Shown here: positions 10,629 to 28,152 of the stretch, one piece after another
Position numbering within the stretch: the stretch's first letter is position 1
How the letters are laid out: each line of letters begins with the position of its first letter
Origin: Candidatus Poribacteria bacterium
GTDB lineage: Bacteria > Poribacteria > WGA-4E > WGA-3G
Direction of reading: 5' to 3'
Assembly: GCA_028824125.1 (NCBI GenBank)
Contig: JAPPES010000122.1
Location: forward strand, 1-34,841
Length of the DNA stretch: 34,841 nt
Translations under genes and position numbers: made by a program
The notes under the pieces: model-generated
What the model was told of the DNA's origin: nothing
Seen by the model: the letters and a program-made list of their open reading frames with translations, nothing else
The model's database searches: none

Positions 10629-10914
10629 GGTTCGGTTAGAAAACCGAACCATAGGCATCAATTTAAGAAGACAAGCGTTCGTAGTCGCGAATTCATTGCC
10701 AAATCAACGCCAAATGCGCGCGTGGTATTGGTGCCTCTTATATTTTGTAGGAGCGACCTCCGGGTCGCGACCCGACAAATGCCAAAGGCGCATTTGGCGT
10801 TGATTCGAGGTCGCTCCTATAGAAGAAATTTGAATTGAAAACCTTATCTTTCAATGTTAAACGGACATTATACCCACTAAATTGACGCTTATGGTTCGGT
10901 TAGGAAACCGAACC
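10629..10914. repeat. MITE-like element, second copy, bounded by matching hairpins
   Basis: The core runs 10649-10894 with inverted ends CCATAGGCATCAATTTAAG and CTAAATTGACGCTTATGG, matching the ends of the element at 3692-3908. Inside, TAGGAGCGACCTC (10748-10760) and GAGGTCGCTCCTA (10807-10819) form the arms of a long hairpin, with a nested GCCAAA/TTTGGC. At each end lies a 22-base palindrome centred on GGTTAGRAAACC (10629-10650 and 10893-10914). The two end palindromes are nearly identical to each other but unlike those on the 3.7-kb copy. No gene lies between 10492 and 11101. The remainder of that gap (10915-11101) is AT-rich and includes a fragment GATTTTACTATAA near 10976-10989 that resembles the end of the element at 13286. 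Confidence 0.75.
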
Positions 10915-11101: not shown

Positions 11102-11130
11102 TTGACATTTCCTTTATGAGGTGTTATAAT
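11102..11130 (+). promoter_or_regulatory. Consensus sigma70-type promoter of the ilv operon
   Basis: TTGACA (11102-11107), a 17-base spacer, and TATAAT (11125-11130) form a full-consensus promoter. Transcription should start near 11137 and produce a leader of about 425 bases before ilvB. Such a strong promoter is what one expects where control is exerted afterwards, by the T-box attenuator. Confidence 0.88.
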
Positions 11131-11136
11131 TAAAAA

Positions 11137-11501
11137 GGAAAGATAAATACTTTCAAAACACCGTAATCTTTAGCAAAACGGTGTGTATAATACAATTAAA
11201 TAGATTACTGAAAAGCGTTGAAGGGGAGGAGTAAGTCCATCGGGCTTGCAAGAGAGGAAGACTCACAGGCTGAAAGGTCTTCTCAAGTTCCTACGACTGA
11301 AGGTCGCCCTGGAGCTGCTAATCTGAACAACTGTAGGAGCGATTCTCCGAATCTCGATAAGTAGGGTTAGTCGGTATGATGTCCGTTATCGCATCCCAAA
11401 AGTGCTTTTCCTTGAAAACAGGGAAAGAATTGGAGTGGTACCACGGTAAGGTCATTTTATGTATCCTTCTCGTCTCCAAAGTTGGAACGAGAAGGTTTTT
11501 T
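11137..11501 (+). promoter_or_regulatory. T-box riboswitch leader, probable valine specifier
   Basis: The leader before ilvB has the T-box parts in order. Stem I: lower stem AGGG/CCCT (11222-11225 with 11307-11310); specifier loop with AGTA (11230-11233) facing GAAGGTCG (11299-11306); AGTC/GACT above it (11234-11237 with 11295-11298); AGAGAG (11251-11256); and a distal hairpin GAAGAC/GTCTTC with GGCTGAAAG in its loop. The codon after GAAG is GTC (11303-11305), that is Val. Stem II is CTAATC/GGTTAG with an internal AGTAG. Stem III is CTTTTCC/GGGAAAG (11405-11411 with 11421-11427). The T-box core AGTGGTACCACGG (11434-11446) holds TGGT to pair with a tRNA ending ACCA. Antiterminator pairs GGAG/CTCC (11432-11435 with 11474-11477) and ACG/CGT use the terminator's own 5' arm. 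Uncharged tRNA-Val should therefore permit read-through. The class is firm; the codon assignment is by analogy with known leaders. Confidence 0.9.
11465..11501 (+). terminator. T-box-controlled intrinsic terminator
   Basis: CCTTCTCGT (11465-11473) pairs perfectly with ACGAGAAGG (11487-11495), extended inward by TCCAA/TTGGA (11475-11479 with 11482-11486), and six T follow directly (11496-11501). The 5' arm is shared with the antiterminator, so the two structures exclude each other. Confidence 0.9.
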
Positions 11502-11563
11502 ACTTTCAACAAACTTACGGCACAACGGAATGTGTCTTAGGACCGTTTATGAGGGAAATTGGC

Positions 11564-13240
11564 ATGGAACTTTCAGGAGCGCGAATCCTGGTTGATTGTC
11601 TTAAACGTGAAGGTGTCGAATATATCTTCGGTGTGAACGGTGGCGCGGCAATGCCGATTTTCGATGCCCTGTACGACGAAACAGAAGTAAAATTGATTCC
11701 GATGCGGCATGAGCAGGGAGCTTCACATGCTGCGGATGGATATGCGCGCGTCACAGGGAAGGTCGGTGTTGCACTTGCTACCTCCGGCCCCGGCGCAACT
11801 AACCTCGTCACTGGAATCGCAACTGCCTATATGGATTCTATTCCGATGGTGGCGATTACCGGACAGGTATTAACTGATTTTATCGGAAGCGATGCTTTTC
11901 AGGAATGCGATGTTATCGGCGTAACGCGACCAATCTGTAAGCACAGTTATCTCATCAAAAGTTGCGATGAAGTAGCAGATGTCGTCGCGGAAGCATTTCA
12001 TATCGCAAGTACAGGAAAACCTGGTCCCGTTATAATTGACATCGCTAAAGATGCTCAGAAAAATGAGACTCTATTTCAGTACCCAGAAACAGTTGATATT
12101 CGCAGTTATAAACCGCAAGTGGACGGCGATCCTGCGCAAATTGCAAAAGCCGCAGCCTTAATTAAGGAAGCAAAAAAGCCGATGCTTTATGCTGGTGGTG
12201 GTGTTGTGCTGGCGAATGCAAGTGAAGAACTCCAAGAGTTGACGCTAAAAACACAAATTCCTATTACCGTCACATTGATGGGACTCGGCGCGTTTCCCGA
12301 AACGCATCCGTTGGCGATGGAGATGCCCGGCATGCACGGTTCTTGCTGTGCGAATTATGCTTTCACTGATGCGGATCTCATTGTTGCCATCGGTGCAAGA
12401 TTTGATGATAGGGTTACTGGTGACCTTGACAAATTCGCTCCGAATGCGAAAAAAATCCATATTGATATTGATGCGTCCTGTATCGGGAAAAATGTACCAG
12501 TAGATGTACCAATTGTTGGCGATGCCAAGAACGTTCTCACCGAACTAAATAAATTGGTTGACACAGCGGATATTGACCCGTGGCGTAATCAAATTCAGGA
12601 ATGGAAACAGAAATATCCGTTTGAATACGAGCAAAAAGCCAATAAAGTAATGCCGCAATATGTTATAGAGCAGATTTATGAACATTATAGGGATGCGATT
12701 GTTGTAGCAGATGTTGGGCAACATCAGATGTGGGCGGCACAATACTTCAAATTTACCGAACCGCGTCAATGGCTAAACTCAGGTGGCCTCGGTACAATGG
12801 GTTTCAGTTTGCCAGCAGCAATCGGTGCACAACTCGGATGTCCGGACAAGACTGTTGTTAATATCAATGGTGATGGTTCCTATATCATGACTATTCAAGA
12901 ATTAGTACCCGCGATTACCATGAAGTTACCACTTAAAATCTTTATCATTAACAATATGTATTTAGGGATGGTGCGGCAATGGCAGGAACTTTTTCATAAT
13001 AAACGTTATTCTGCTGTGGATTACCACGACAACCCTGATTTCGCCTTGCTTGCACAAGCATTCGGGGCAACCGGTCTACGCGTTGAACACCCTGAAGATG
13101 TTGAACCCGCATTACTGAAGGCAAAAGGGATTAACGATGGTCCTGTCGTGATTGACTTCATTGTTGATGAAGATGAGAACGTATTCCCGATGGTGCCAGC
13201 CGGGGCAGGGCTTGGAGATGTTATACGCGGACTGTCCTGA
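11564..13240 (+). CDS. ilvB: Acetolactate synthase large subunit
   Basis: This 558-residue ThDP enzyme condenses two pyruvates to acetolactate, or pyruvate with 2-oxobutyrate, the first common step to valine, leucine and isoleucine. The catalytic Glu is E50 in RHEQGASHAADGYAR; the FAD/central domain follows (DADLIVAIGARFDDRVTG); the ThDP-binding motif starts GDGSYIMT (G436) and ends IINN. The frame is open from 11459, but an ATG there would lie inside the T-box terminator. I take the ATG at 11564, which has GAGGGA eight bases upstream and starts the protein at the conserved MELSGARILVDCL; ATG 11549 is possible. Length is normal for the family. Expression should depend on the T-box leader. ilvN follows only after an unusual 282-bp gap filled with repeats. 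Confidence 0.95.
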   Translation: MELSGARILVDCLKREGVEYIFGVNGGAAMPIFDALYDETEVKLIPMRHEQGASHAADGYARVTGKVGVALATSGPGATNLVTGIATAYMDSIPMVAITGQVLTDFIGSDAFQECDVIGVTRPICKHSYLIKSCDEVADVVAEAFHIASTGKPGPVIIDIAKDAQKNETLFQYPETVDIRSYKPQVDGDPAQIAKAAALIKEAKKPMLYAGGGVVLANASEELQELTLKTQIPITVTLMGLGAFPETHPLAMEMPGMHGSCCANYAFTDADLIVAIGARFDDRVTGDLDKFAPNAKKIHIDIDASCIGKNVPVDVPIVGDAKNVLTELNKLVDTADIDPWRNQIQEWKQKYPFEYEQKANKVMPQYVIEQIYEHYRDAIVVADVGQHQMWAAQYFKFTEPRQWLNSGGLGTMGFSLPAAIGAQLGCPDKTVVNINGDGSYIMTIQELVPAITMKLPLKIFIINNMYLGMVRQWQELFHNKRYSAVDYHDNPDFALLAQAFGATGLRVEHPEDVEPALLKAKGINDGPVVIDFIVDEDENVFPMVPAGAGLGDVIRGLS

Positions 13241-13285
13241 TTTTCCTAAACCACATCTATCCACTACAGATCAAAGGACGATTTA

Positions 13286-13397
13286 TAGTAAAATTCACAA
13301 TTATCTTTACGTTGGCGAGGTTAGGAAACCTCGCCAGCACGAGCGTGTGTGGGAATTGTTGTTCATTGAAATGTCCACATATTTTCGGATTTTACTA
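13286..13397 (+). repeat. MITE-like element A (112 bp, TAGTAAAAT ends)
   Basis: The ends are inverted repeats, TAGTAAAATTC on the left and GGATTTTACTA on the right, which fits TA-dinucleotide flanks around GTAAAATYC. Inside is the perfect hairpin GGCGAGG/CCTCGCC around TTAGGAAA (about 13314-13335). A second copy in opposite orientation is at 15237-15346, roughly 85-90% identical by eye. It lies between ilvB and ilvN. Confidence 0.8.
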
Positions 13398-13403
13398 CAA
13401 CCT

Positions 13404-13489
13404 ATCTCATAAATCGTAGGAGGGGTTTCTAACCCCGATTCACTGGACACGCGATCCGGTAAATTTGGACAAAATTGCATTTATGAGAT
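13404..13489. repeat. 86-bp element with perfect 11-bp terminal inverted repeats
   Basis: ATCTCATAAAT (13404-13414) and ATTTATGAGAT (13479-13489) are exact inverted ends. Between them is GTAGGAGGGGTTTCTAACCCC, a hairpin that combines the GTAGGAG start of the repeats at 3.8 and 10.7 kb with a GGTTTCTAACC stem. It follows element A directly and ends 33 bp before ilvN. Part of its interior (CCGGTAAATTTGGAC) resembles, inverted, the sequence at the start of the ABC gene near 28168. Confidence 0.7.
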
Positions 13490-13501
13490 ACGCTGTATAA
13501 T
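13475..13501 (+). promoter_or_regulatory. Possible internal promoter before ilvN
   Basis: TTGCAT (13475-13480) and TATAAT (13496-13501) are spaced by 15 bases, shorter than the usual 17. The -10 is perfect, and the -35 would lie at the edge of the 86-bp repeat element. If used it would let ilvN-ilvC be expressed without passing the T-box. Weakly supported. Confidence 0.3.
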
Positions 13502-13522
13502 AAAAAGTAGAAGTTAAATATA

Positions 13523-14020
13523 ATGAGTAAAGAAAAACGACACATATTTTCAGTTTTGGTCGAAAACCGATTTGGAGTCCTTGCACGCGTCGCAGGACTT
13601 TTCAGTGGGCGTGGTTTTAATATTGATAGTCTCAACGTCGCTGAGACTCACGACGAGAGCATCTCACAGATTACTCTTGTTACGCATGGCGACGCACAGA
13701 TAATTGAGCAAATCTATCAACATTTGAACAGATTGATTGACGTTATTGAGGTTACAGACCTTTCCACTGGCACACATGTTGAACGTGAACTTGTTCTTAT
13801 CAAGGTTGCTACCGATGATCCACAAAAACGCACCGAGATTCTACAAGTCGCAGAGGTCTTTCGTGGACGGGTGATAGATATGAAACCTGCCTCTCTTGTG
13901 CTTGAGATTACTGGGGATGAGGGTAAATTGAAAGCGGCGATTGATATTTTCAGTACGTACGGTATCATTGAGTTAGCGCGCACTGGCAAAATTGCGATGA
14001 TGCGGGGTGCTACAAAATAG
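13523..14020 (+). CDS. ilvN: Acetolactate synthase small regulatory subunit
   Basis: A 165-residue ACT-domain protein, the usual length of IlvN/IlvH. The ACT domain is at the N-terminus (HIFSVLVENRFGVLARVAGLFSGRGFNIDSLNV), with the glycine-rich turn where valine binds at the subunit interface; the C-terminal domain follows with ELVLIKV and EVFRGRVIDMKP. It binds IlvB, raises its activity and confers valine feedback inhibition. The gene has only a weak ribosome site (AGAAG) before ATG. In most bacteria ilvN abuts ilvB; here the two are separated by two tandem repeat elements, which may supply an internal promoter. ilvC begins 59 bp after it. Confidence 0.95.
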   Translation: MSKEKRHIFSVLVENRFGVLARVAGLFSGRGFNIDSLNVAETHDESISQITLVTHGDAQIIEQIYQHLNRLIDVIEVTDLSTGTHVERELVLIKVATDDPQKRTEILQVAEVFRGRVIDMKPASLVLEITGDEGKLKAAIDIFSTYGIIELARTGKIAMMRGATK

Positions 14021-14079
14021 GAACTCGTTGGTGGGCATAGACTTTATCAGAAAAGATTCAAAAGAGAGGAAAAAATTGT

Positions 14080-15072
14080 ATGGCAACAATTTATTACGAT
14101 AGCGATGCCAATTTTGATTTACTAAAGGAGCGTACCGTCGCCATTATCGGTTATGGTGCGCAGGGCAGGGCACAAGCACTAAACTTACAAGATAGCGGCG
14201 CAAACGTTGTTGTTGGGTTATATGAGGGCAGTCGTTCAAAAGCACGCGCGGAAGCAGAAGGCATAACTGTCAAAACGGTGGAAGAAGCATCAACGATGGC
14301 GGATATTGTCCAGATTCTGATCCCCGACGAAAAACATTCTGCCGTCTACCGCGAGCAGATAGCCCCGAATATGCAAGCAGGAAACATGCTGATGGTATCA
14401 CACGGGTTTAGCGTTCATTTTGGACAGATTGTCCCTGCAGACGATATTGACGTTACGATGATCGCCCCGAAGGGACCTGGTTCTCTTGTCCGTGAAGTAT
14501 TTGAAGGTGGTGGCGGTGTGCCGTGTCTCATTGCTATCCATCAAGATACCACTGGTGCTGCCCGCGATATTGCACTCGCTTATGCAAGAGGCATTGGCGG
14601 CACACGCGCTGGGGTCATGGAAACGACATTTCGTGAAGAAACTGAAACCGACCTTTTTGGTGAACAAGCTGTGCTGTGTGGCGGCACCGCTGCCCTCATC
14701 AAAGCAGCTTTTGATACACTCGTAGAGGCAGGTTATCAACCAGAGATGGCATATTTTGAATGTCTCCATGAGTTAAAACTAATCGTAGACCTTATCTATA
14801 CCGGCGGATTGAGTAAGATGCGCAACGATGTGAGTAACACCGCTGAATATGGTGACCTGACACGCGGCCCGCAACTCATTGACGATGATGTTCGAGAAAA
14901 AATGCGCCAGATTCTAAAAGACGTGCAAGGCGGTGTTTTCGCACGAGAATGGGTGCTTGAAAATCAGGCAAATCAACCTGTACTGCAAGCACTTCGCCGA
15001 CAAGAAGCTGAATTGGAAATTGAGGCAGTTGGCAAGAATTTACGTAGTATGATGAGTTGGCTTGACGAATAG
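14080..15072 (+). CDS. ilvC: Ketol-acid reductoisomerase (class I)
   Basis: This 330-residue enzyme isomerises and reduces acetolactate to dihydroxy-isovalerate (and the isoleucine counterpart) with Mg2+ and NAD(P)H. The Rossmann motif is [15 protein letters not shown] (G24-x-G26-x-x-G29). The catalytic His lies in [10 protein letters not shown], and the metal-binding acidic residues lie in [14 protein letters not shown] and in the knotted C-terminal domain ([16 protein letters not shown]). Length and single C-terminal domain mark class I. The cofactor loop reads [16 protein letters not shown]: the Arg usual in NADPH-type GLRxGSxS is Tyr, though the loop serines remain, so cofactor preference cannot be called safely. 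AGAGAGGA precedes the ATG. It is the last gene of the T-box-controlled operon; ilvD and leu genes are not in the window. Confidence 0.96.
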
Positions 15073-15123
15073 ATTGGTTACATAGCAGGTTTGTATTATG
15101 GAGTCAAAATTGACATATCCCCT

Positions 15124-15362
15124 CAGCTGATGAAGAGTGAAAAAATAAATCGGTCCTGTGGCGAGGTTAGGAAACCTCGCCAGCAGCAGGGCACGCGTGC
15201 TTCGTGCAGACCGAAAATTACCGAATTAATAAATTAAAGTAAAATCCGAAAATATGTGGACATTCCAATGAACAACAATCCCCGCACCATAACGCTGGCG
15301 AGGTTTCCTAACCTCGCCAATGTCCAGGTAATTGTGGATTTCACTATAATCCTCATCAGCTG
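15124..15362. repeat. Composite inverted repeat between convergent genes
   Basis: The 332-bp gap between ilvC and the first WD40 stop codon is almost all repeat. Outer inverted arms CAGCTGATGA (15124-15133) and TCATCAGCTG (15353-15362) bracket it. Inside lie a GGCGAGGTTAGGAAACCTCGCC-type hairpin (about 15160-15182), an inverted copy of the GAAGATTAA...ATTCGGTAATTTT repeat end (about 15213-15235), and the element at 15237-15346, which carries a second, inverted copy of the same hairpin (about 15296-15319). The two hairpins could pair with each other across 115 bases. These structures may serve as terminators for both convergent genes, but no clear T-run follows them. Confidence 0.65.
15237..15346 (-). 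repeat. MITE-like element B, inverted copy of element A
   Basis: The reverse complement of this segment matches 13286-13397: the same GTAAAAT-type ends, the same central hairpin, and the same right part (TTGTTGTTCATTG then TGTCCACATATTTTCGG). Differences are scattered point changes and a short variable stretch right of the hairpin. With element A it brackets ilvN-ilvC. Confidence 0.78.
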
Positions 15363-15404
15363 GGGGAGTATATCAAAACCTGCGTAGCCATGAACCATGA
15401 TTGA

Positions 15405-17459
15405 TTATGAACACACGTCATCCATATAAGGTTTCATATCCCATAGCAGGATAGTACCATCAAAGCTACCACTCGCCAAAAGCGTTCCATCCGGCGAAAA
15501 TCCAAGCGACTGAATGTCTGTCGGATGTCCCCAAAGAGTAGCGATATTCTCACCACTTGCAACCTCCCATAACCTAATTGCCATCTTCTCCATTCCTTCA
15601 TGCCACCAAGTGCCGGACGCGAGATAACGTCCACACGGCGAAAATGCCAAAGCATAAGGGTTCTCTGATTCAGGCTGCGGTATTGCAAAAAGTGTTGTTA
15701 GGGTTTCGGCACACCAGATTCGTAGTTCGCCGTACATCCCGCCCGCAATCAAGTTACCACACGGTGAAAATGCAATCTCCATCAGTATGCTGGGTTTGTC
15801 CAAAGGCAGTGTAGCAATCTCTTTGCTTGTCTCTACGTCCCACAGTCGAGCAGTTCTATCACTTGAACCACTTACGAGTCTTTTGCCATCCGGTGAATAT
15901 TCCACCGACCAGATGAAATCGGTATGTCCAGTGAATGGTTTCAGTTTCTCTTTAAGTTTGAAATCCCAGTGATAGATTGTGCCTGCTCTACTTCCAACTG
16001 CAAGTTGATCGCTTGTCGGTGAGAATGCTATTTTCCAAGTTAATTGTGCTTTTTCTGTAAATTCAGCGATCAGTTCGTCAGGATTCTCAGCGTCCCACAC
16101 ACAGCCATAGTCATCATTGGCTTGGATATACGCACCGATGATGTTTCCACAAGGTAAAACAGTGAAAGAGGTAATGCGCTTATCCTCAAGTAATGTTTCC
16201 TGCACCTGTTTACTTTCAATATCCCATAACACAATTCCCCTACGATCACTTGTGCTTGCAAGCGTCTTTCCATCCGGTAAAAATAGGACAGGTTGCGGAA
16301 CATTGTCAAATCCGCGAAGCGTTGTGGTTAAGTGTATGTTATTTCCCACCTTAGGCTTTTTACTATGTGTGATGTCTATCAGAGCCTGTTGTGGGAACTC
16401 TCTAAACCACATAGCATCAATGCTGCGAGGATGAATTTCTGGAATGGGAAGTTTTTCTCTACCTTCCACATTCCACACTTCAATAGTATGTTCCCCATCC
16501 ACAATCGTAAATAATTCCCCTTCTTCGGAGTAGAATGGTACTACCCGAGTCGTTTGAAAATCAGTATAAACTTCCTTTTGCCTACCCTTTACGATGTCCC
16601 AGACGCGCAAGCTTTGATCCCTACTACTTGATATGAGGAATTTATTACAAGGTGAGAAGGTGATAAAATCTACCCAATCGTTATGTCCTATGAAGTGCGC
16701 GATACGTTCACCTGTCGCTATATCCCACACTGAAACACATGGGGCAATCCAATCACCATCGTTAACGGATTCGTCAGGAGTCGCGGCAGCCAATAAGCGA
16801 CTATCTTGAGAAAAGACAAACTCTATACCCGCGAATTTAAAAAATAACTCACCTGTCTCTGGACACCAAATATAAATTTGTGTGCCTTTTGTACCAAGAT
16901 CATCTACAGTAGTAGCGACGTACTGTCCATTTGGAGAGAATTCTGATTCGTAAATATCAGCTGATATAACTTCACGTTCGCTTCGATCCATTTGTGCGAC
17001 GCACACACCGCGATGAACATCTAATACCTCTACGATTCCCTGCTGATTCGCGGTAACAATCCATTTACTATCCGGTGAAAAGGCAATTTTCCAATAGATA
17101 TTATGTTCTTGCATCCGTTTCATCTGTGCCATGCACTCACCACTCTCAACATCCAGTACTTTAATGATACCGTCGTAACTTCCGGTAGCAATATATTCTC
17201 CATTTTGTGAAAAATCGAGGGCGGAAATCATCCCTCGTTCTGTTTCCCACAAAGCGATAGGTGATTTTGACGACATATCATACCACCAAAGTCCCATAAG
17301 TGTCCCGACAGCGAAATACGCATTATTGGGTGAGAGTGCAAATTTAGCACTTCTTCCTTTCCCAAACCGAGCAATTGCGTTTTCTGGCAATGCCCATGTC
17401 GTTCCTTCAGTGTCACCCGCAACGGCATTGAATGGTGCGGGTTTTCTATTTTGTTTCAT
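15405..17459 (-). CDS. WD40-repeat protein, array copy 1 (most divergent)
   Basis: This 684-residue protein is made of WD40 beta-propeller blades throughout, probably enough for two propellers. Clear blades include HFIGHNDWVDFITFSPC...LRVWDI (about residues 255-300), FTGHTDFIWSVEYSPDG...ARLWDV (about 515-555), and the last, GHPTDIQSLGFSPDGTLLAS to ILLWDMKPY. No signal peptide, membrane helix or enzyme domain is present, so it is likely a cytoplasmic protein-binding scaffold. It is the most diverged of six paralogues and the last in the direction of transcription: its N-terminus (MKQNRKPAPFNAVAGD then TTWALPENAIARFGKG) only partly keeps the family start DITTWELPEGA-ARLGQG. AAGGAGA precedes the ATG. 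The molecular partner is unknown. Confidence 0.88.
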   Translation of the reverse strand: MKQNRKPAPFNAVAGDTEGTTWALPENAIARFGKGRSAKFALSPNNAYFAVGTLMGLWWYDMSSKSPIALWETERGMISALDFSQNGEYIATGSYDGIIKVLDVESGECMAQMKRMQEHNIYWKIAFSPDSKWIVTANQQGIVEVLDVHRGVCVAQMDRSEREVISADIYESEFSPNGQYVATTVDDLGTKGTQIYIWCPETGELFFKFAGIEFVFSQDSRLLAAATPDESVNDGDWIAPCVSVWDIATGERIAHFIGHNDWVDFITFSPCNKFLISSSRDQSLRVWDIVKGRQKEVYTDFQTTRVVPFYSEEGELFTIVDGEHTIEVWNVEGREKLPIPEIHPRSIDAMWFREFPQQALIDITHSKKPKVGNNIHLTTTLRGFDNVPQPVLFLPDGKTLASTSDRRGIVLWDIESKQVQETLLEDKRITSFTVLPCGNIIGAYIQANDDYGCVWDAENPDELIAEFTEKAQLTWKIAFSPTSDQLAVGSRAGTIYHWDFKLKEKLKPFTGHTDFIWSVEYSPDGKRLVSGSSDRTARLWDVETSKEIATLPLDKPSILMEIAFSPCGNLIAGGMYGELRIWCAETLTTLFAIPQPESENPYALAFSPCGRYLASGTWWHEGMEKMAIRLWEVASGENIATLWGHPTDIQSLGFSPDGTLLASGSFDGTILLWDMKPYMDDVCS

Positions 17460-17494
17460 ATTTTCTCCTTGATTATGTTTTGATGTAACATAAG

Positions 17495-17513
17495 ATTATA
17501 GTTGGCAATTGCC
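17495..17513 (-). promoter_or_regulatory. Candidate -10 box and palindrome before WD40 copy 1
   Basis: On the minus strand a perfect TATAAT (17500-17495) lies about 36 bases before the ATG of the gene ending at 15405. Directly upstream of it is the perfect palindrome GGCAATTGCC (17504-17513), placed where a repressor could block the promoter. The -35 region is poor, so this is a candidate only. Confidence 0.3.
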
Positions 17514-17530
17514 TTGCACACGCTGAGGTG

Positions 17531-19552
17531 CTAACTTTGAATGTAAGGTGTCATATCCCAAAGCATGATTGTGCCATCATAACTGCCACTTGCTAAAATT
17601 GTTCCATCTGGTGAGAAAGCGAGGTCTTGAATATCGCTACTGTGCCCCCGGAAAGTGACGATATTTTCACCGCTTGCAATATCCCACAACCTAATTAGCA
17701 TGTTATCCATCCACTTGTCCCACCAGGTGCCGGATACGAGGTATCGTCCACACGGTGAAAATGCTAACGCATACAGTAGCTCCCAACTATCCTTCGGCTG
17801 CGGAATGGTCTTGAGCATTTCGCGATGCTCAATATCCCATAATAGAATCTCTTTTTCTCCACAACAAGCGACCATGGTACTACACGGTGAAAATGCGATG
17901 TGTGGGGTTTTATTTGGAAATGCGTCAATTGCTTCACCACTTTCAACATCCCACAATCGAGAATTAGTTCCACCATAAAAACTGATACTCACGAGCTGTT
18001 TTTCGTTTGGACTAAATGCAACAATAGGTATCCGAGCGGTATGTGCTTTGAGTTGGTGTAACATCTCTTGCTGCTCCACATCCCACACATAAAGCGTGCC
18101 TTCAGTGTCCCCACAAGCGATTAAGTTACGGACTGGCGCAAATATTGAACTACACGGTCCTACTCGATTTCCTTGCTCAGGAAAGAAGAAAAAAGCGATT
18201 GGCGTCTTGTCGTTTGCAAGTTCCCATACTCTAATCATCCAATATCCCGTAGTATCGTATTTATATTCAGTAGCATACAATTTTCCCATCGGTGACGTAG
18301 AAAAAATGAAGTTTCCTCGTGCTTTGTCAAAACGGCTTGATGGTTGAGAGAGATTGGCAGTGTCCCAGAACATCAATGTATTTCCCGGAGATGAGGCTGC
18401 AAGGGTTTTTCCATCCTGAGAAAAGGCGAGGGAATAAGGTACATCGATATACGAATAACTCAATGTCTTGGGTTGGGTGTCGCCAACGTTCCATACCTTA
18501 AATTCGCTTTCGGTTAAGGAGACGAAAGGGCATTCTTTTGGTAAATGGTTACCTTGAAGTCCGTGATGTGCTTCAAGGTAAGTATCGGACTTTTTCTCAC
18601 GTTCTACGTCCCACACGGTGAGGGTATCATCAGAGACTTCAGCAGCATATAGGACGCTCTCTGGTGAATAGAAGACTTTCTTTGGTTCTATTCCATAGTC
18701 GTGGAATTCTTGTGTCATTTTCCAATCGTCAAGTGTCCAAACCCTAACTGTACCTTTCTGCCCGCTGGATGCGAGAAACTTCCCACACGGTGAAAAGCAG
18801 AGACTCACAGCAGAATCCGTAGGTTCTGTAAGACAAGCGATATGTTTGCCGCTTTTCAAATTCCATACTGCAATATAGTTAAAGGAGTTTTCTGGAATTC
18901 GAATTCTATCTAAAGAGTCTGCACAAGCAAGCAAATTGTAGTCGGGCATTGTGCAGGCAAGTAGTGAACCATCAGCGGAGAAGGCAATAGGACGAGGTTT
19001 GCCACGGAACCATCTGAAATTGGTTTCAACATGATATTTTGCGACCCTATCACCTGTCTCTGTGTGCCAAACATAAACGATATAGTCCGCATTGGCTGAG
19101 GAGGCAAGATACTGACTATCAGGGGAAAAGACTAAATGTGAAACAAAATTAACTCCAAACATATTTTGTGCAATTTTCTTCGTCTCATCTCTTTTCAACC
19201 TTGAAATGCAGGCACCGCGTTTCACATCCCATACCTTGACTATCCCTTCCCCGTCTCCCGTAGCAAGCCATTTGCCATTGGGTGAAAAAGAAATAGCAGT
19301 AATCCATCCCCTACCTGTATCCCATAAAGTAATCGGAGTCATAGTAGAAAGATCATACCACCAAACTCCTATTGTATTGCCTACAGCGATATATCTCCCA
19401 TCTGGCGATGGAGCAATTGGTTGCGGTGTTATATCGTCCATCATTTGTCCTTGTCCTAATCGGGCGGTTGCGCCTTCAGGAAGTTCCCAGGTCGTTATAT
19501 CACTGTTTTCAGGCTGCCTAATAGCAGGTGACCATTTTTCATTATTTTGCAT
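17531..19552 (-). CDS. WD40-repeat protein, array copy 2
   Basis: A 673-residue all-WD40 protein. The N-terminal tag MQNNEKWSPAIRQ and DITTWELPEGATARLGQG is shared almost exactly with copies 3 to 6. First blades: VWWYDLSTMTPITLWDTGRG and ISFSPNGKWLATGDGEGIVK; last blade: FRGHSSDIQDLAFSPDGTIL to IMLWDMTPYIQS. No signal peptide or membrane segment is seen. The first three or so blades and the last two are the most conserved between copies, while the middle (about residues 270-430) differs most, including a stretch (EAHHGLQGNHLPKECPFVSL) that is not WD-like. ACAAGGAAACTGATTTT before the ATG is identical to the site before copy 4. The gap to copy 1 is 71 bp. Scaffold or binding role is inferred from the fold only. 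Confidence 0.88.
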   Translation of the reverse strand: MQNNEKWSPAIRQPENSDITTWELPEGATARLGQGQMMDDITPQPIAPSPDGRYIAVGNTIGVWWYDLSTMTPITLWDTGRGWITAISFSPNGKWLATGDGEGIVKVWDVKRGACISRLKRDETKKIAQNMFGVNFVSHLVFSPDSQYLASSANADYIVYVWHTETGDRVAKYHVETNFRWFRGKPRPIAFSADGSLLACTMPDYNLLACADSLDRIRIPENSFNYIAVWNLKSGKHIACLTEPTDSAVSLCFSPCGKFLASSGQKGTVRVWTLDDWKMTQEFHDYGIEPKKVFYSPESVLYAAEVSDDTLTVWDVEREKKSDTYLEAHHGLQGNHLPKECPFVSLTESEFKVWNVGDTQPKTLSYSYIDVPYSLAFSQDGKTLAASSPGNTLMFWDTANLSQPSSRFDKARGNFIFSTSPMGKLYATEYKYDTTGYWMIRVWELANDKTPIAFFFFPEQGNRVGPCSSIFAPVRNLIACGDTEGTLYVWDVEQQEMLHQLKAHTARIPIVAFSPNEKQLVSISFYGGTNSRLWDVESGEAIDAFPNKTPHIAFSPCSTMVACCGEKEILLWDIEHREMLKTIPQPKDSWELLYALAFSPCGRYLVSGTWWDKWMDNMLIRLWDIASGENIVTFRGHSSDIQDLAFSPDGTILASGSYDGTIMLWDMTPYIQS

Positions 19553-19605
19553 AAAATCAGTTTCCTTGTAAGATTTATAAATTGGGTTAGAGTTTTTTGT
19601 GGCTG

Positions 19606-19621
19606 AGTATAGCGCTATACT
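19606..19621. promoter_or_regulatory. 16-bp perfect palindrome before WD40 copy 2
   Basis: AGTATAGCGCTATACT is a perfect palindrome about 55 bases before the ATG of the gene ending at 17531. A one-base variant, AGTATAGTGCTATACT, occupies the same place before the next paralogue (21703-21718), and a decayed version is near 23786-23803. It contains TATACT, which could be a -10 box on either strand. It may be an operator copied with the genes, or only duplicated spacer. Confidence 0.4.
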
Positions 19622-19641
19622 TGTTGGTTAATTGTTAGTGT

Positions 19642-21657
19642 TTAGGAGTCTATATAGGGTCTCAAATCCCAAAGCAGGATTGTACCGTCATAACCGCCAC
19701 TCACCAAAATCGTGCCATCTGGTGAGAAAGTGAGACACTGCACGTCTGTTGGGTGTCCTCGGAAGGTAGCAATGTTCTCGCCACTCGCAACATCCCACAG
19801 CCGCACCGGACACTTCTTAATACCGAATCCTCTTATCCACGATGCACCGGAAACCAAAAATCTACCACATGGTGAAAATGCCAATGCAAATGGATACGTA
19901 CTATCCATCGGTTGAGGTATCCTAATTATAGTTTCACCACAGTTGATATTCCATAATACTATTTCTGACGGACGACCTATCTGAGCGAGTGCGATCAAGG
20001 TACTACAAGGTGAAAACGCAAACGCATAATTTCTTTCTGGAAACGTTTCAATCGCTTCACCGCTTTCAAGGTCCCACAACTTGGAAACAGGTCCGTCCAT
20101 TGTTGCGCTCACAATATTCTTTTCATTTGGACTAAATGCTATAAAATTAATCCATTCGGAATGCGCTTTAAGCGTGTGTCGTATGTGCTGTTGCTGCACA
20201 TCCCACACATACATTGTGCCTTCACTATCCCCACATGCCAGCAGGTTGGTTTTGTGTGCGAATGATGCTGTTGATACCTGTCGCTCTTGTTCGGCAAGTG
20301 GGCTTTTTTCGCTGGGAAGTGTAAAAGTGGCGGTGGGTGTATCAGTGTTTCCAATGTCCCATACCTTGGTAACAGGGCCATCACGACCCGTTCCGTAGAT
20401 TTTTCCCTGAGGCGAAACAGAAGGAACATAATCTCTTCCGGGTAGGTTGACACTGGATGGTGGTGAGGAAGGTTGGGTAATATCCCATAACATTACTTCC
20501 TCACCTTTGCTCCAATACCCACCTGCGAGTGTTTTCCCATCTGGCGCAAAAACAAGCGAAAATGGTACACCAGTATGTGAATGCGGAAGCGAACGCGGCT
20601 CAGAATCACCGACTGTCCATTTCCGAAATTCACGAGGGTTGGTGAAAGGTAAAACGAATGGTGTTCCCTTGGGAACATGGACACCTTGAAGAGAACTATG
20701 TTCATCTAAGGAAAAGTCGCATTTTTCACCGCTCGCAACATCCCACACGACAAAGGTTTCATCAGATTTTTGGGAAGCGTGCAGAACACCAGATGGTGAA
20801 TAGAAAACTTGCATCCGTCCTGTCCCAAAAAAATCGCGGTACTCCTTAGTCTGTTGCCAATTGTCAACAGACCACACCCGAATTGATCCACCCCGTCCAC
20901 CAGCGGCAAGGAGCCGTCCACAAGGTGAAAAACAAACGCTTCGTACAACCCCATCGGTATTTGTGAGGCAGGCAAGTTGTTCTTGTGTTTCTATGTTCCA
21001 CACAGCAATGAATTCGGTAAAATTCTCAGGAAGATGAATGGTTCCACCAGGTTTGGCTTGTATGGCTAAACTGTTATCAGGTATTGGACACGCCAATAAA
21101 CGGCTATCTGCAGAAAAAGCGATGGGTCGCCTGGTGCGATCGCGCCATCTAAATTTATTCGGGTCGTCATTGAGTTTCGCAATACGTTCACCGGTTTCTG
21201 GGTTATAGACATATAGGATATAATCACGTGTGCTGGACACTGTAAGACGTTGACTATCGGGTGAAAAGACGAGGTAAGAAACATAATGGTAAGATCTCTC
21301 CTCTTCATCCCGCTCCATTTGCTTGATACATACACCGCGCTGCATATCCCATACCTTGACGAGTCCGTCCCCATCAGCTGTGGCAAGCCACTTGCCATTT
21401 GGGGAAAAGGAGACAGCAGAAATGCATCCCCGATCTGTGTCCCATAGTGCAATAGGGGTCATGGTGGATAAATCATACCCCCATAACCCTACAGCAGTTC
21501 CAAATGTAATGAACTTGCCATTAGGCGAGTATGCCATATCAGACATTATTTTCCCTTGTCCTAATCGGAAAACCGCACCATCGGGTAGTTCCCAGGTAGT
21601 TATATCATTGCTTGCAGACTGCCTAATAGCAGGCGACCATTTTTCACTATTTTGCAT
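19642..21657 (-). CDS. WD40-repeat protein, array copy 3
   Basis: A 671-residue all-WD40 paralogue starting MQNSEKWSPAIRQ and then DITTWELPDGAVFRLGQG. It is closest to copy 4. The two share long near-identical nucleotide tracts, for example the segment encoding CGDSEGTMYVWDVQQQHIRH and the one encoding FPERNYAFAFSPCSTLI. The last blade is FRGHPTDVQCLTFSPDGTIL to ILLWDLRPYIDS. No signal peptide, membrane helix or catalytic motif is seen. AAGGATACT lies before the ATG. The spacer to copy 2 (89 bp) contains the 16-bp palindrome. The closeness of copies 3 and 4 implies recent duplication or gene conversion between neighbours. Confidence 0.88.
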   Translation of the reverse strand: MQNSEKWSPAIRQSASNDITTWELPDGAVFRLGQGKIMSDMAYSPNGKFITFGTAVGLWGYDLSTMTPIALWDTDRGCISAVSFSPNGKWLATADGDGLVKVWDMQRGVCIKQMERDEEERSYHYVSYLVFSPDSQRLTVSSTRDYILYVYNPETGERIAKLNDDPNKFRWRDRTRRPIAFSADSRLLACPIPDNSLAIQAKPGGTIHLPENFTEFIAVWNIETQEQLACLTNTDGVVRSVCFSPCGRLLAAGGRGGSIRVWSVDNWQQTKEYRDFFGTGRMQVFYSPSGVLHASQKSDETFVVWDVASGEKCDFSLDEHSSLQGVHVPKGTPFVLPFTNPREFRKWTVGDSEPRSLPHSHTGVPFSLVFAPDGKTLAGGYWSKGEEVMLWDITQPSSPPSSVNLPGRDYVPSVSPQGKIYGTGRDGPVTKVWDIGNTDTPTATFTLPSEKSPLAEQERQVSTASFAHKTNLLACGDSEGTMYVWDVQQQHIRHTLKAHSEWINFIAFSPNEKNIVSATMDGPVSKLWDLESGEAIETFPERNYAFAFSPCSTLIALAQIGRPSEIVLWNINCGETIIRIPQPMDSTYPFALAFSPCGRFLVSGASWIRGFGIKKCPVRLWDVASGENIATFRGHPTDVQCLTFSPDGTILVSGGYDGTILLWDLRPYIDS

Positions 21658-21702
21658 AAATTCAGTATCCTTATAAATTGGATTAGAGACTATTTGTGGC
21701 TG

Positions 21703-21718
21703 AGTATAGTGCTATACT
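21703..21718. promoter_or_regulatory. Near-palindrome before WD40 copy 3
   Basis: AGTATAGTGCTATACT, one base away from the perfect palindrome at 19606-19621 and at the same distance from its gene's start. Flanking bases (TGGCTG before, TGTT after) are also shared, so the whole spacer was duplicated. Confidence 0.38.
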
Positions 21719-21739
21719 TGTTAGGTTGATTGTTGGTGT

Positions 21740-23731
21740 TTAGGAGTTTATATAAGGTTTCAAATCCCAAAACAAAATCGTGCCATCATAACCGCCACTC
21801 GCCAAAATCGTGCCATCTGGTGAGAAAGTGAGACACTGGACATCTGTAGGATGCCCACGGAAGGTAGCAATGTTTTCACCATTCGCAACATTCCACAACC
21901 GCACCGAGCATTTCTTTATATTCATGTTTCGCATCCACGTTGCCCCAGAAGCGAAATAATGACCACACGGTGAAAATGCTAATGCAAACGGGCTCCAACT
22001 ATCCTTCGGTGGGAGGATACTCATGACAGTTTCACGACAGTTGATATCCCATAAAAGAATCTCCTCTCTTCGACCAAGGACAATCAGCGTGCTACAAGGC
22101 GAAAAAGCAAACGCATAATTTCTTTCTGGAAACGCTTCAATCGGTTCACCATTTTCAACGTCCCACAAGCGAGAGTTAAGCCCGGACTCTGTCTTACTCA
22201 CAATATTCTTTTCATCGGGACTAAATCCTATAAAATCGATCCAACCAGTATGTGCTTTGATCTTGTGTCTTATGTGCTGTTGCTGCACATCCCACACATA
22301 CATTGTGCCTTCACTATCCCCACATGCCAGCAGGTTGGTTTTGGGTGCGAAAACAACCGTTGACATGACCAATTTAGATTTTTTTTCTGCGTCGGGAAGT
22401 TTGAAAGTAGCAATGGGTGTCTCAATGTTTCCAATGTCCCACACCTCTGCAGTTTTACCATCGCAACTACCGGCTGCGTATATTTTTCCTTGTGTCGATT
22501 CGGAGACAACATAACTTTCCCCAGATAGATTGAGACGAGAGGGTGGTGAAGATGGTTGAATCATATCCCATAACCTCACCTTATCGTTCCAATACCCGGC
22601 TGCAAGTGTTTTCCCATCTGACGTAAAAACAAGCGAAGTAGGAACACCGGTATGTAAATGCTGAAACGAACACGGTTCAGAATCTCCGCCTGTCCATTTT
22701 CTAAATTCACGAGGTCTGTAGAAAGGTAAAACGAATGGGGTGCCCTTAGGAACGTGGGCACCCTGAAGCACACTCTGCACTTCAACGGATAGTTCACATT
22801 TTTCACGGCGCGCCACATCCCACACGACAAAAGTGTCATCAGACCTTTGGGCGGCATGCAGAACACCCGATGGTGAATAAAAGACTTGCATCCGTCCTGT
22901 GCCGAAATCGTGGTAGCTATGTATCCGTTGCCAATCAGCAACCGACCAAACAAAAACAGGACCACCCCATCTACCGGAGGCGAGGAAACGACCACACGGC
23001 GAAAAACAGAGACTCTGCACAAAACGTTCGGTATCTGTGAGACAAGCAATTTGTTCACCCGCCTCTACATCCCACACTGCGATAAAATCGATAGAACCAT
23101 CAGGGAAACGAATCTCACCATTAGAGTCTGCATGCACCATAAGACTTTCATCTGGCATTGTGCATGCCAATAGACTGCCATCTGCAGAAAAAGCTATGGG
23201 ACGCCTGGTGCGACCACGCCATCTGAACTTATTCGGGTCATCATAAAGTTTGGCAAGACATTCCCCGGTTGCTGGGTGATAGACGTAAAGGATATAATCA
23301 CGGTTGCTGGATACAGCGAGGCGTTGACTATCCGGTGAAAAGACAAGCTGTGAAACTATATGATAAGATTTCTCGTCTTCATTCCGTTCCATCTGTGCAA
23401 CGCAAACACCGCGCTGCACATCCCATACCTTTACAAGACCGTCGCCATCCCCAGTAGCAAGCCACTGACCATCCGGAGAAATGGAGACTACGGAAATAAT
23501 ACCACGATCTGTATCCCACAACGCAATAGGGGTTATGGTAGATAAATCATACCACCAAACCCCTATAGTGCTACCGAATACAAAGTGTTTTCCATCGAGA
23601 GAATATGCAATGTCAGACATTATTCCCCCTTGTCCTAATCGGGAAATTGCACTATCAGGAAGTTCCCAGGTAGTTATATCACTGTTTTTAGTTTGCCTAA
23701 TAGCAGGCGACCATTTTTCATTATTTTGCAT
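21740..23731 (-). CDS. WD40-repeat protein, array copy 4
   Basis: A 663-residue all-WD40 paralogue, the shortest of the six. It starts MQNNEKWSPAIRQ and then DITTWELPDSAISRLGQG; the last blade is FRGHPTDVQCLTFSPDGTIL to ILFWDLKPYINS. Compared with copy 3 it lacks a few residues in the linker before CGDSEGTMYVWDV but is otherwise parallel. The ribosome site and 5' spacer are the same as for copy 2 (ACAAGGAAACTGATTTT), although its body is closer to copy 3. That mosaic pattern suggests exchange between copies. No signal peptide or enzyme motif is seen. It is probably cytoplasmic with a binding role; the ligand is unknown. Confidence 0.88.
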   Translation of the reverse strand: MQNNEKWSPAIRQTKNSDITTWELPDSAISRLGQGGIMSDIAYSLDGKHFVFGSTIGVWWYDLSTITPIALWDTDRGIISVVSISPDGQWLATGDGDGLVKVWDVQRGVCVAQMERNEDEKSYHIVSQLVFSPDSQRLAVSSNRDYILYVYHPATGECLAKLYDDPNKFRWRGRTRRPIAFSADGSLLACTMPDESLMVHADSNGEIRFPDGSIDFIAVWDVEAGEQIACLTDTERFVQSLCFSPCGRFLASGRWGGPVFVWSVADWQRIHSYHDFGTGRMQVFYSPSGVLHAAQRSDDTFVVWDVARREKCELSVEVQSVLQGAHVPKGTPFVLPFYRPREFRKWTGGDSEPCSFQHLHTGVPTSLVFTSDGKTLAAGYWNDKVRLWDMIQPSSPPSRLNLSGESYVVSESTQGKIYAAGSCDGKTAEVWDIGNIETPIATFKLPDAEKKSKLVMSTVVFAPKTNLLACGDSEGTMYVWDVQQQHIRHKIKAHTGWIDFIGFSPDEKNIVSKTESGLNSRLWDVENGEPIEAFPERNYAFAFSPCSTLIVLGRREEILLWDINCRETVMSILPPKDSWSPFALAFSPCGHYFASGATWMRNMNIKKCSVRLWNVANGENIATFRGHPTDVQCLTFSPDGTILASGGYDGTILFWDLKPYINS

Positions 23732-23823
23732 AAAATCAGTTTCCTTGTAAGATTTATTAATTGTATCTGATATTATTCGTGGCTGAATATAGGCGTTATA
23801 CTTGTAGGGTTAATTGTTGGTGT

Positions 23824-25824
23824 TCAGGAGTCTATATAGGGTTTCATATCCCAAAGTAGGATTGTACCGTCATAACCGCCACTCGCCAAAATCGTGCCAT
23901 CAGGTGAGAAAGTGAGGCACTGCACATCACTGCAATGCCCTCGAAAAGCAGCGATGTTTTTACCACTCACAACATCCCACAACAGCACTGGACACTTCTT
24001 AATACCGAAGCCGCGTATCCACCACGCACCAGAAGCCAAATAGCGACCACACGGCGAAAATGCTAACGCAAATGGATTCCAACTGTCCTTTGGCTGAGGG
24101 ATATTCATGACAGTTTCACAATGCTCAATATCCCATAAAAGAATCTCCTTTCCTTTACCGATGGCAATTAAAGTACTACAAGGTGAGAAAGCAAACCCAT
24201 AAGTTTTTTTAGGAAACGTATCAATTGCTTCATAACTTTCTACATCCCACAATTGGGAGACAGGTCCAGTATTCCTAATGCTCAAAAGCAGTTTTTCATT
24301 TGGGCTAAAAGCAAGTGAATTAATCCACCCATCATGTGCTTTGAAGGCATGTTGTATGTGCTGTTGCTGTACATCCCACACATACAACATGCCTTCACTA
24401 TCCCCACATGCCAGTTTGTTGCTTTTGTGTGCGAACACTGCTGTTGATACCTGTCTTTCTTGTTCGGCAAGAGGGATTTCTTCGTCAGGAAGTGTGAAAG
24501 TGGCAATGGGTGTCTCAGTGTTTCCAATTTCCCACACCTTGGCAATTGTGTTATCACGACCAGTTGCATGGATTTTTCCGTGTGACGACGCAGAGACGGT
24601 ATAATTTCCTCCAGGTAGGGTGAAACTGGATGGTGGCGAAGATAGTTGGGTAACATCCCATAACATTACCTTTTCATTTTCGCTCCAACACCCACCTGCA
24701 AGTGTTTTTCCATCTGGCGTAAAAACAAGCGAAAAGGGAACAGCAGTATGTAAATGGGGAAATGAACGTGGTTCGGAATCACCTACCGTCCATTTCCGAA
24801 ATTCACGAGGGGTGTAAGAAACTGAAACGAATGGGGTGTCTTTCGGAACGTGGGCATCATGGAGAGAGTTATGCTCTTCAAGGTAGAAGTTGCCCTTTTC
24901 ACCGCGCGCTACATCCCACACGATGAAGGCATCATCAGAAACTTCCAAAGCGTGCAGCACACCCTCTGGAGAATAGAAAACTTTCTTCCGTTCCGTTCCA
25001 AGATTCTGGAAAGTGTGGAGCAATTCCCAATTTATGACTGACCAAACCCGAACCGTACCATCTCGTCCTCCAGATGCCAGAAATTTCCCGCAAGGTGAAA
25101 AGACAAGACTATAAACAAAATCAGGATGTTCTGTAATACAAGCTATTTGTTCACCTATTTTGATATTCCATACAGCAATGTAGTTAGAAGAATGTTCAGG
25201 TGTGCGGATTGTACCGCCGCGATCTGCATGTGCAAATAAGTTCTCATCTGGCATTGTACAAGCGATCAAACTCCTATCTGGAGAGAAAGCAATAGGTCGT
25301 AAGAGAAAAGGCCACCATCTATAATTGGTATTGTCGTGAAATTTTGCAATCCGTTCCCCTGTTTCAGTGTTCCAGACGTATAAGATGTAGTCACGCCGAC
25401 TAGAGACAGCGAGCAGCTGACTATCAGGTGAAAAGACGAGGCGGGAAACAGAATGATAGGGTTTCTCCGCTTCATCTCGCTCCATTTGGGAAATGCAAAC
25501 ACCTCGCTGCACATCCCATACTTTGACGAGTCCGTCTCCATCACCTGTGGCAAGCCATCTGCTATTCGGAGAAAAGGAGACAGTTGAAATATATCCTCTG
25601 TCAGTGTCCCAGAGATCTATAGGAGTCATAGTTGATACATCATACCACCACACCCCTATGTCACTGGAAACGACGAAATACTTTCCATCTGGCGAGGGAG
25701 TGATACTTTGATCTATCCTGCCTTGTCCTAATCGGGCGGTTGCGCCTTCAGGAAGTTCCCAAGTCGTTATATCGTTATTGTTATGCTGCGTAAAAGCAGG
25801 TGACCGATTTTCATTATTTTCCAT
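23824..25824 (-). CDS. WD40-repeat protein, array copy 5
   Basis: A 666-residue all-WD40 paralogue. The reading frame is open further upstream, into the end of copy 6, but I place the start at the ATG 25822-25824. It has AAGAGGACA upstream and gives MENNENRSPAFTQ and then DITTWELPEGATARLGQG, in register with the other copies. The body is intermediate between copies 3/4 and copy 6: the block around CGDSEGMLYVWDVQQQHIQH resembles copies 3 and 4, while the N-terminal tag (SPAFTQHNNNDITTWELP) matches copy 6. The last blade is FRGHCSDVQCLTFSPDGTIL to ILLWDMKPYIDS. There is no membrane or signal sequence. The spacer to copy 4 is 92 bp. Confidence 0.88.
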   Translation of the reverse strand: MENNENRSPAFTQHNNNDITTWELPEGATARLGQGRIDQSITPSPDGKYFVVSSDIGVWWYDVSTMTPIDLWDTDRGYISTVSFSPNSRWLATGDGDGLVKVWDVQRGVCISQMERDEAEKPYHSVSRLVFSPDSQLLAVSSRRDYILYVWNTETGERIAKFHDNTNYRWWPFLLRPIAFSPDRSLIACTMPDENLFAHADRGGTIRTPEHSSNYIAVWNIKIGEQIACITEHPDFVYSLVFSPCGKFLASGGRDGTVRVWSVINWELLHTFQNLGTERKKVFYSPEGVLHALEVSDDAFIVWDVARGEKGNFYLEEHNSLHDAHVPKDTPFVSVSYTPREFRKWTVGDSEPRSFPHLHTAVPFSLVFTPDGKTLAGGCWSENEKVMLWDVTQLSSPPSSFTLPGGNYTVSASSHGKIHATGRDNTIAKVWEIGNTETPIATFTLPDEEIPLAEQERQVSTAVFAHKSNKLACGDSEGMLYVWDVQQQHIQHAFKAHDGWINSLAFSPNEKLLLSIRNTGPVSQLWDVESYEAIDTFPKKTYGFAFSPCSTLIAIGKGKEILLWDIEHCETVMNIPQPKDSWNPFALAFSPCGRYLASGAWWIRGFGIKKCPVLLWDVVSGKNIAAFRGHCSDVQCLTFSPDGTILASGGYDGTILLWDMKPYIDS

Positions 25825-25913
25825 ATATTTGTCCTCTTGGTAATTGGTATAATTTAGATTGAAGTATTTTGAACTTGCATGCCACGTATACTTATTGGAT
25901 CTGTTCAAGGGTT

Positions 25914-27920: not shown

Positions 27921-28152
27921 ATAATTTGTCCTTTTGGTAATTGGTATATTTGGGATTGTGATAGTGTTCCTTCTCACAATTAGAAGTTGAACAGACTGTC
28001 ACGTAATATAAAATAATGATTCACCTATACACATTCTTGGATGCACCTTTTGCTTTCAACCACGACACAAACGGTTACAATATCCAACGACTTTAACATT
28101 AAACTGATTAAACACCCACCCCAAATTCACGTCAAAATGCAATACCTATTTT

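Follow-up and report, generated by a model that had tools for sequence, protein, structure and literature searches.

The question raised by the stretch of DNA in front of ilvB in this contig is whether it encodes a genuine T-box switch, which tRNA such a switch would sense, and whether a member of this family can be placed in Poribacteria at all. T-boxes have been recorded in Firmicutes, Actinobacteria, Chloroflexi, Deinococcus-Thermus and a few deltaproteobacteria (Table 3 of PMC2494555, and the part of PMC3766115 that deals with their distribution), and no report of a Poribacteria T-box was found in the open-licence literature. The window, as the whole analysed stretch of 34,841 nucleotides is called here, had been described in an earlier note, made from the sequence alone, as carrying at 11137-11501 a T-box with a valine specifier that controls ilvB-ilvN-ilvC, possibly in a Poribacteria-like host. 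The host assignment is borne out by the IlvB protein, whose best named relative belongs to Candidatus Poribacteria bacterium isolate jk18xAbins.24 (94% identity), with the next named relative at 57% or less.

A search of the window with the Rfam T-box covariance model RF00230 (gathering score 93 bits) gave a single match at the gathering threshold, at 11209-11480 on the forward strand, with 104.9 bits, an E-value of 2.3e-22 and the full length of the model (positions 1-219 of 219). The landmarks seen in the earlier note do run 5' to 3' in T-box order, starting with AGTA at 11230-11233, and neither of the two outcomes that it had named as fatal to its reading (the lack of a covariance-model match, or a specifier outside the branched-chain amino acids) was found. 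The features of the locus are as follows.

11102-11130 (+): sigma-70-type promoter TTGACA-17-TATAAT with TG before the -10 box, 12 of 12 consensus matches
11137-11208 (+): 5' leader ahead of stem I, with a hairpin at 11158-11184 predicted in the single-sequence fold
11215-11315 (+): Stem I with specifier loop and distal AGAGA / GCTGAAA (RF00230 alignment; covariation)
11303-11305 (+): specifier codon GTC (valine), register GAA-N-NNN-R from the RF00230 alignment
11318-11370 (+): Stem II with S-turn AGTA at 11360-11363 (pairing and covariation)
11332-11357 (+): palindromic repeat in the Stem II terminal loop, a diverged copy of a genome repeat
11372-11395 (+): Stem IIA/B pseudoknot with F-box CCGTTA at 11383-11388 (CGG/CCG plus GATG/CATC)
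11405-11427 (+): Stem III (pairing and covariation)
11430-11479 (+): antiterminator, helices A1 TTGGAG/CTCCAA and A2 ACGG/TCGT, bulge TGGTACC at 11436-11442 (RF00230 alignment)
11465-11501 (+): intrinsic terminator, stem 11465-11495 followed by six T at 11496-11501 (inverted arms, fold, direct reading)
11564-13240 (+): ilvB, acetolactate synthase large subunit (TIGR00118, 797.6 bits against a cut-off of 538.35, scored on the frame 11459-13240)
13523-14020 (+): ilvN, acetolactate synthase small subunit (TIGR00119, 190 bits against 56.9)
14080-15072 (+): ilvC, ketol-acid reductoisomerase (TIGR00465, 452.5 bits against 226.15)

The leader shares with class I T-boxes (the Bacillus subtilis tyrS type, RF00230) a long stem I with distal motifs (here AGAGA at 11251-11255 and GCTGAAA at 11269-11275) and a specifier in an internal loop, as well as Stem II with an S-turn, a IIA/B pseudoknot with F-box, Stem III, a UGGN antiterminator and a terminator. 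Specifically, the S-turn AGTA and the pseudoknot place it in class I, and the presence of Stem II keeps it out of class II, in which that domain is absent. The translational classes III and IV, in whose definition (in the section of PMC10482949 on classes) stem I is short or of intermediate length and lacks the distal motif that binds the tRNA elbow, do not accommodate a long stem I with AGAGA/GCTGAAA and a six-T terminator. It differs from the known class I examples in its Poribacteria host and in a Stem II loop that holds a palindrome repeated in the genome. The repeat (of the type TGTAGGAGCGAtctccgaaTCGCGA) has 41 sites in the host genome within 3 mismatches of a 25-base consensus, against 0 for the reversed control; one of the 41 lies at 10746-10770, and the copy in the leader is more diverged and falls outside the 41. 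The same repeat or diverged kin also occurs in the Stem III loops of six other copies (L200, L204, L212, L214, L216 and L217). In these terminal loops of T-box stems the repeat lengthens a hairpin and apparently leaves the conserved parts undisturbed.

At the 3' end, the inverted arms 11465-11473/11487-11495 and the fold reveal the terminator, which a generic terminator scan of the window did not list, probably due to a bulged C in its stem. As the earlier note had seen, the 5' arm of the terminator (11465-11478) is shared with the antiterminator, overlapping its 3' arm (11470-11479) in bases 11470-11478; the two hairpins, one in the terminator fold and an antiterminator-like one in the fold of a shortened stretch, are mutually exclusive. 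Folded to minimum energy, the leader as a whole does only mildly better than shuffled sequences (z -2.1, with 3 of 100 shuffles as good), and this fold misses part of stem I. By eye, the region ahead of stem I (11158-11184) had seemed likely to hold a further conserved hairpin or pseudoknot, which was dropped after RNAalifold returned zero pairs for 27 relatives (27 of the 31 copies from genera g1 and g2 plus L062, with L154, L162, L166 and L182 left out). Taken on its sequence, the leader is a genuine, ordinary T-box switch in an unusual host, and it is almost certainly a class I T-box that would attenuate transcription of ilvB-ilvN-ilvC.

The host is far from a single case, and the range extension suggested in the earlier note turns out to be wider than proposed: T-box matches are present in 78 of 84 Poribacteria genomes examined, the host included, and exceed the cut-off in 60 of the 84. 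Among the nearest 59 genomes, 54 have a match, and the specifiers were read in 96 copies, namely all 95 matches in these 59 genomes together with the named locus L062, which may duplicate a genome already counted (the T-boxes of the 25 further genomes lie outside this set). The copies divide into 51 of the Val/Ile type and 45 of the Phe type, and the T-box is near-universal at two loci throughout the Poribacteria genomes examined. Three of the 96 copies, two of them at contig ends, have no identified gene.

The codon itself depends on the register. In the window, the RF00230 alignment places the specifier loop GAA-G-GTC-G at 11299-11306, and with it the valine codon that the earlier note had read. 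It could be argued that the register is misread and that the leader senses another tRNA (through GGT, TCG or a Leu/Ile codon, for instance), since the loop varies in some copies, one of which (L054) has ATC and another of which (L190) is one base shorter. This is very improbable: the same register, GAA-N-NNN, yields TTC before pheS in 44 of 44 copies, GTC before ilvB or ilvD in 48 of 49 (L190 being included despite its shorter loop) and, in a Bacillota control, GTC before valS, and the neighbouring registers in the window, GGT and TCG, are Gly and Ser codons unrelated to the genes. The remaining ilvB/ilvD copy reads ATC, so that GTC stands before ilvB in 47 copies (including L190) and before ilvD in one (L157), and ATC before ilvB in one (L054). 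Indeed, the specifier fits the downstream gene in all 93 copies in which that gene is identified; the 51 Val/Ile-type copies comprise 50 with GTC (one with the shorter loop, two without an identified gene) and one with ATC. An apparent TCG specifier in L190 was set aside in favour of GTC in the one-base-shorter loop.

Some individual copies deserve mention. L054 (genome G039) reads ATC (Ile) and L043 (G036), in the same genus and before the same gene ilvB, reads GTC (Val), which, judging from the codons, would be a natural specificity change on ilvB. In G050 a GTC T-box (L157:204-441) precedes ilvD (dihydroxy-acid dehydratase) and not ilvB. A second GTC T-box in G003 is the candidate L154, which lies at a contig end and may be contamination, and a second TGGTACC in L202, near the coding start, was not accepted as an antiterminator.

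For covariation, 47 of the 51 Val/Ile copies were aligned with MAFFT, L154, L156, L162 and L192 having been excluded before counting (contig ends, long inserts); the structure counted followed the Rfam alignment, to which two further pairs in the antiterminator helix A1 and the IIA/B pseudoknot were added by eye. Overall, 94.2% of 2341 cells pair and two-sided changes occur in 33 of 50 pairs, against a shuffled mean of 13.6 with 0 of 500 shuffles reaching 33 (the shuffles ignore relatedness), and sliding the partners by 1-3 columns lowers pairing to 41-53%, a comparison tilted towards the structure counted, since one of the aligned sequences is its source. By element, the five helices of stem I are 93-100% paired and 14 of their 19 pairs show two-sided changes, Stem II is 97.6% paired (6 of 7 pairs), the IIA/B helices 95.0 and 94.6% (5 of 7) and Stem III 92.9% (6 of 7). 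Compensatory changes, present in every one of these helices, support the stem I, II, IIA/B and III parts of the structure. The antiterminator helices are less informative in this respect (A1 87.6% paired, 2 of 6 pairs two-sided; A2 89.2% paired, 0 of 4), partly because MAFFT misaligned eight rows with an extra hairpin. This hairpin lies between the antiterminator arms in eight genus g1 copies (L166, L178-L183 and L185).

These helices also bear on a different kind of attenuator. In Corynebacterium, ilvBNC is subject to attenuation or to control through an upstream reading frame (as stated in parts of PMC11857589 and PMC10272879), and a ribosome-dependent leader peptide could likewise be imagined here in place of a tRNA-binding leader; as the leader matches the T-box covariance model in full and its T-box helices covary, this explanation is barely credible. 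Nor is there much to be said for a degenerate T-box that has lost its switching, a negligible prospect in spite of variable Stem II and Stem III loop interiors (palindromic repeat included), as the copies that were read retain the core, the specifier and the terminator, with compensatory changes, and most Val/Ile-type copies still have a promoter match. More specifically, the pattern TTGAC[ATC]-16-18-TAT[AT][ACT]T is matched upstream in 36 of the 51 Val/Ile copies (a contig end truncates one or more of the 15 others) as against 0 of the 45 Phe copies. In the window the promoter ends at 11130, which puts the start given in the earlier note, 11137, close to the expected transcription start.

The class I T-box reading also agrees with the genes and the tRNA. 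All three downstream genes score above their NCBIfam cut-offs, as expected from the earlier note's ilvB-ilvN-ilvC, and the GTC specifier at 11303-11305 agrees with the amino acid pathway that they serve. The start of ilvB is presumably the ATG at 11564, the longest frame (from 11459) extending back into the terminator. A gap of 282 bases separates ilvB from ilvN, which makes control of ilvN and ilvC by the switch putative; a scan of 13100-15420 listed 4 promoters (4.6 in shuffles) and 1 terminator (1.9 in shuffles), no excess over chance. Further along the window, six adjacent reading frames of 663-706 aa occupy 15405-27977 on the reverse strand, and the one of the six that was tested (15405-17459) encodes a WD40 repeat protein.

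The host genome has 47 tRNA matches (Rfam), with tRNA-Val anticodons GAC, TAC and CAC (ARAGORN). The earlier note had asked for a tRNA-Val(GAC) ending in ACCA: the discriminator A is encoded and the gene ends there, but the CCA is not, and the ACCA end would arise only after CCA addition. The TGGT that it had placed in the T-box core is indeed there, within TGGTACC, and the corresponding UGGU of the bulge (11436-11439) complements the discriminator A. The TAC and CAC tRNA-Val genes, checked by eye, also have discriminator A, so that the choice of the GAC isoacceptor falls to the specifier alone.

A mechanism can be proposed from these parts. Transcription would start near 11137, as the promoter suggests, and stem I would offer GUC for pairing with the GAC anticodon of tRNA-Val, its distal motifs stacking on the tRNA elbow, with the Stem II S-turn and the IIA/B pseudoknot bracing the codon-anticodon pairing. 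With uncharged tRNA-Val, the 3' end (discriminator A plus CCA) would pair with the UGGU bulge, the antiterminator would hold and the polymerase would read into ilvBNC; with charged tRNA-Val, the 3' arm would be released and the terminator at 11465-11501 would form. That this leader binds tRNA and responds to its charging is inferred from the biochemistry of the family (as set out in parts of the review PMC7583486), and read-through would follow the same logic; in hand are the sequence parts, the covarying helices, the mutually exclusive hairpins, a matching tRNA gene and the downstream genes.

Bacillota T-boxes with GUC before ilv operons or valS have the same specifier and pathway, and GUC makes up 29% of the Val specifiers in TBDB (according to the portion of PMC7778990 on specifiers). 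Examples are L114 (Syntrophomonadaceae, ilvD-ilvB-ilvN), L093 (ilvE-ilvD-ilvB-ilvN, its GTC read by position only in a loop without a clear GAA) and L257 (valS), from which the window differs in having ilvB-ilvN-ilvC directly. Of 18 comparison loci scanned, three had T-boxes: L114 and L093, with GTC before ilv operons, and L141 from Bacillus, with CTC (Leu). The specifier pattern gave 30 readings on 50 Bacillota loci, some of them plainly false, and only the alignment- or gene-backed L257, L259 and L262 were used. The arrangement and the specifier are thus already known; the new part is the host phylum.

The second host T-box, L002 (C88:88503-88707, reverse strand, outside the window; 86.4 bits, under the cut-off), lies between rplT and pheS with the specifier TTC (Phe); an A-rich stretch of about 20 bases takes the place of Stem II and the F-box. 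In this it resembles class II T-boxes (the B. subtilis glyQS type), with a long stem I and a single-stranded linker replacing Stem II. In the host's genus and a sister genus (g1 and g2), 24 of 26 pheS T-boxes pass from stem I to Stem III without a Stem II or an F-box; the other two, L199 and L212 (both g2), have short inserts with F-box-like CCGTTA and CTCGTTA and no S-turn match, perhaps remnants. In g3 and the other families, F-box and S-turn match are kept in 19 of 19. L217 is a variant with TGGTCCC in place of TGGTACC.

In an alignment of the 26 copies of g1 and g2, 94.9% of 1116 cells pair and two-sided changes occur in 16 of 43 pairs, against a mean of 7.9 in 500 shuffles, none of which reached 16; slid versions pair in 33-53% of cells. 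Stem I and Stem III carry this signal, and the antiterminator is nearly invariant. All 45 Phe copies together are 92.1% paired with 28 of 43 pairs two-sided, a count reached by 3 of 500 shuffles. This covariation, counted in Poribacteria copies alone, argues for function of the Stem II-less pheS T-boxes. In all 45 Phe copies rplT lies upstream, and the simple pattern matches no promoter ahead of any of them, so that the pheS T-box would attenuate inside an rplT-pheS transcript, from what would be an rplT-pheS operon.

Stem II-less (class II) T-boxes are described as glycine-specific in the passage of PMC10482949 that treats them, and no report of a non-glycine one was found in the open-licence literature. 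For comparison, 13 Bacillota genomes were checked, 12 of which had matches; 20 shorter ones among the matches listed were fetched and eight were aligned to Rfam. Four of the eight lack Stem II, all with GGC (Gly) and UGGA, and the other four keep it, shortened in three. L002 differs from these glycine examples in reading UUC and having UGGU, and its specifier is A-U-rich, yet Stem II is absent. On the evidence of these alignments, and against a small Bacillota sample of eight, the pheS elements of Poribacteria would depart from the class II rule. The sister pheS element therefore offers a natural with/without test of the role of Stem II, in which the same codon is read by relatives with and without the domain. 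More broadly, Poribacteria adds a phylum to the range of the T-box, which bears on whether the family spread from Firmicutes or has an older origin.
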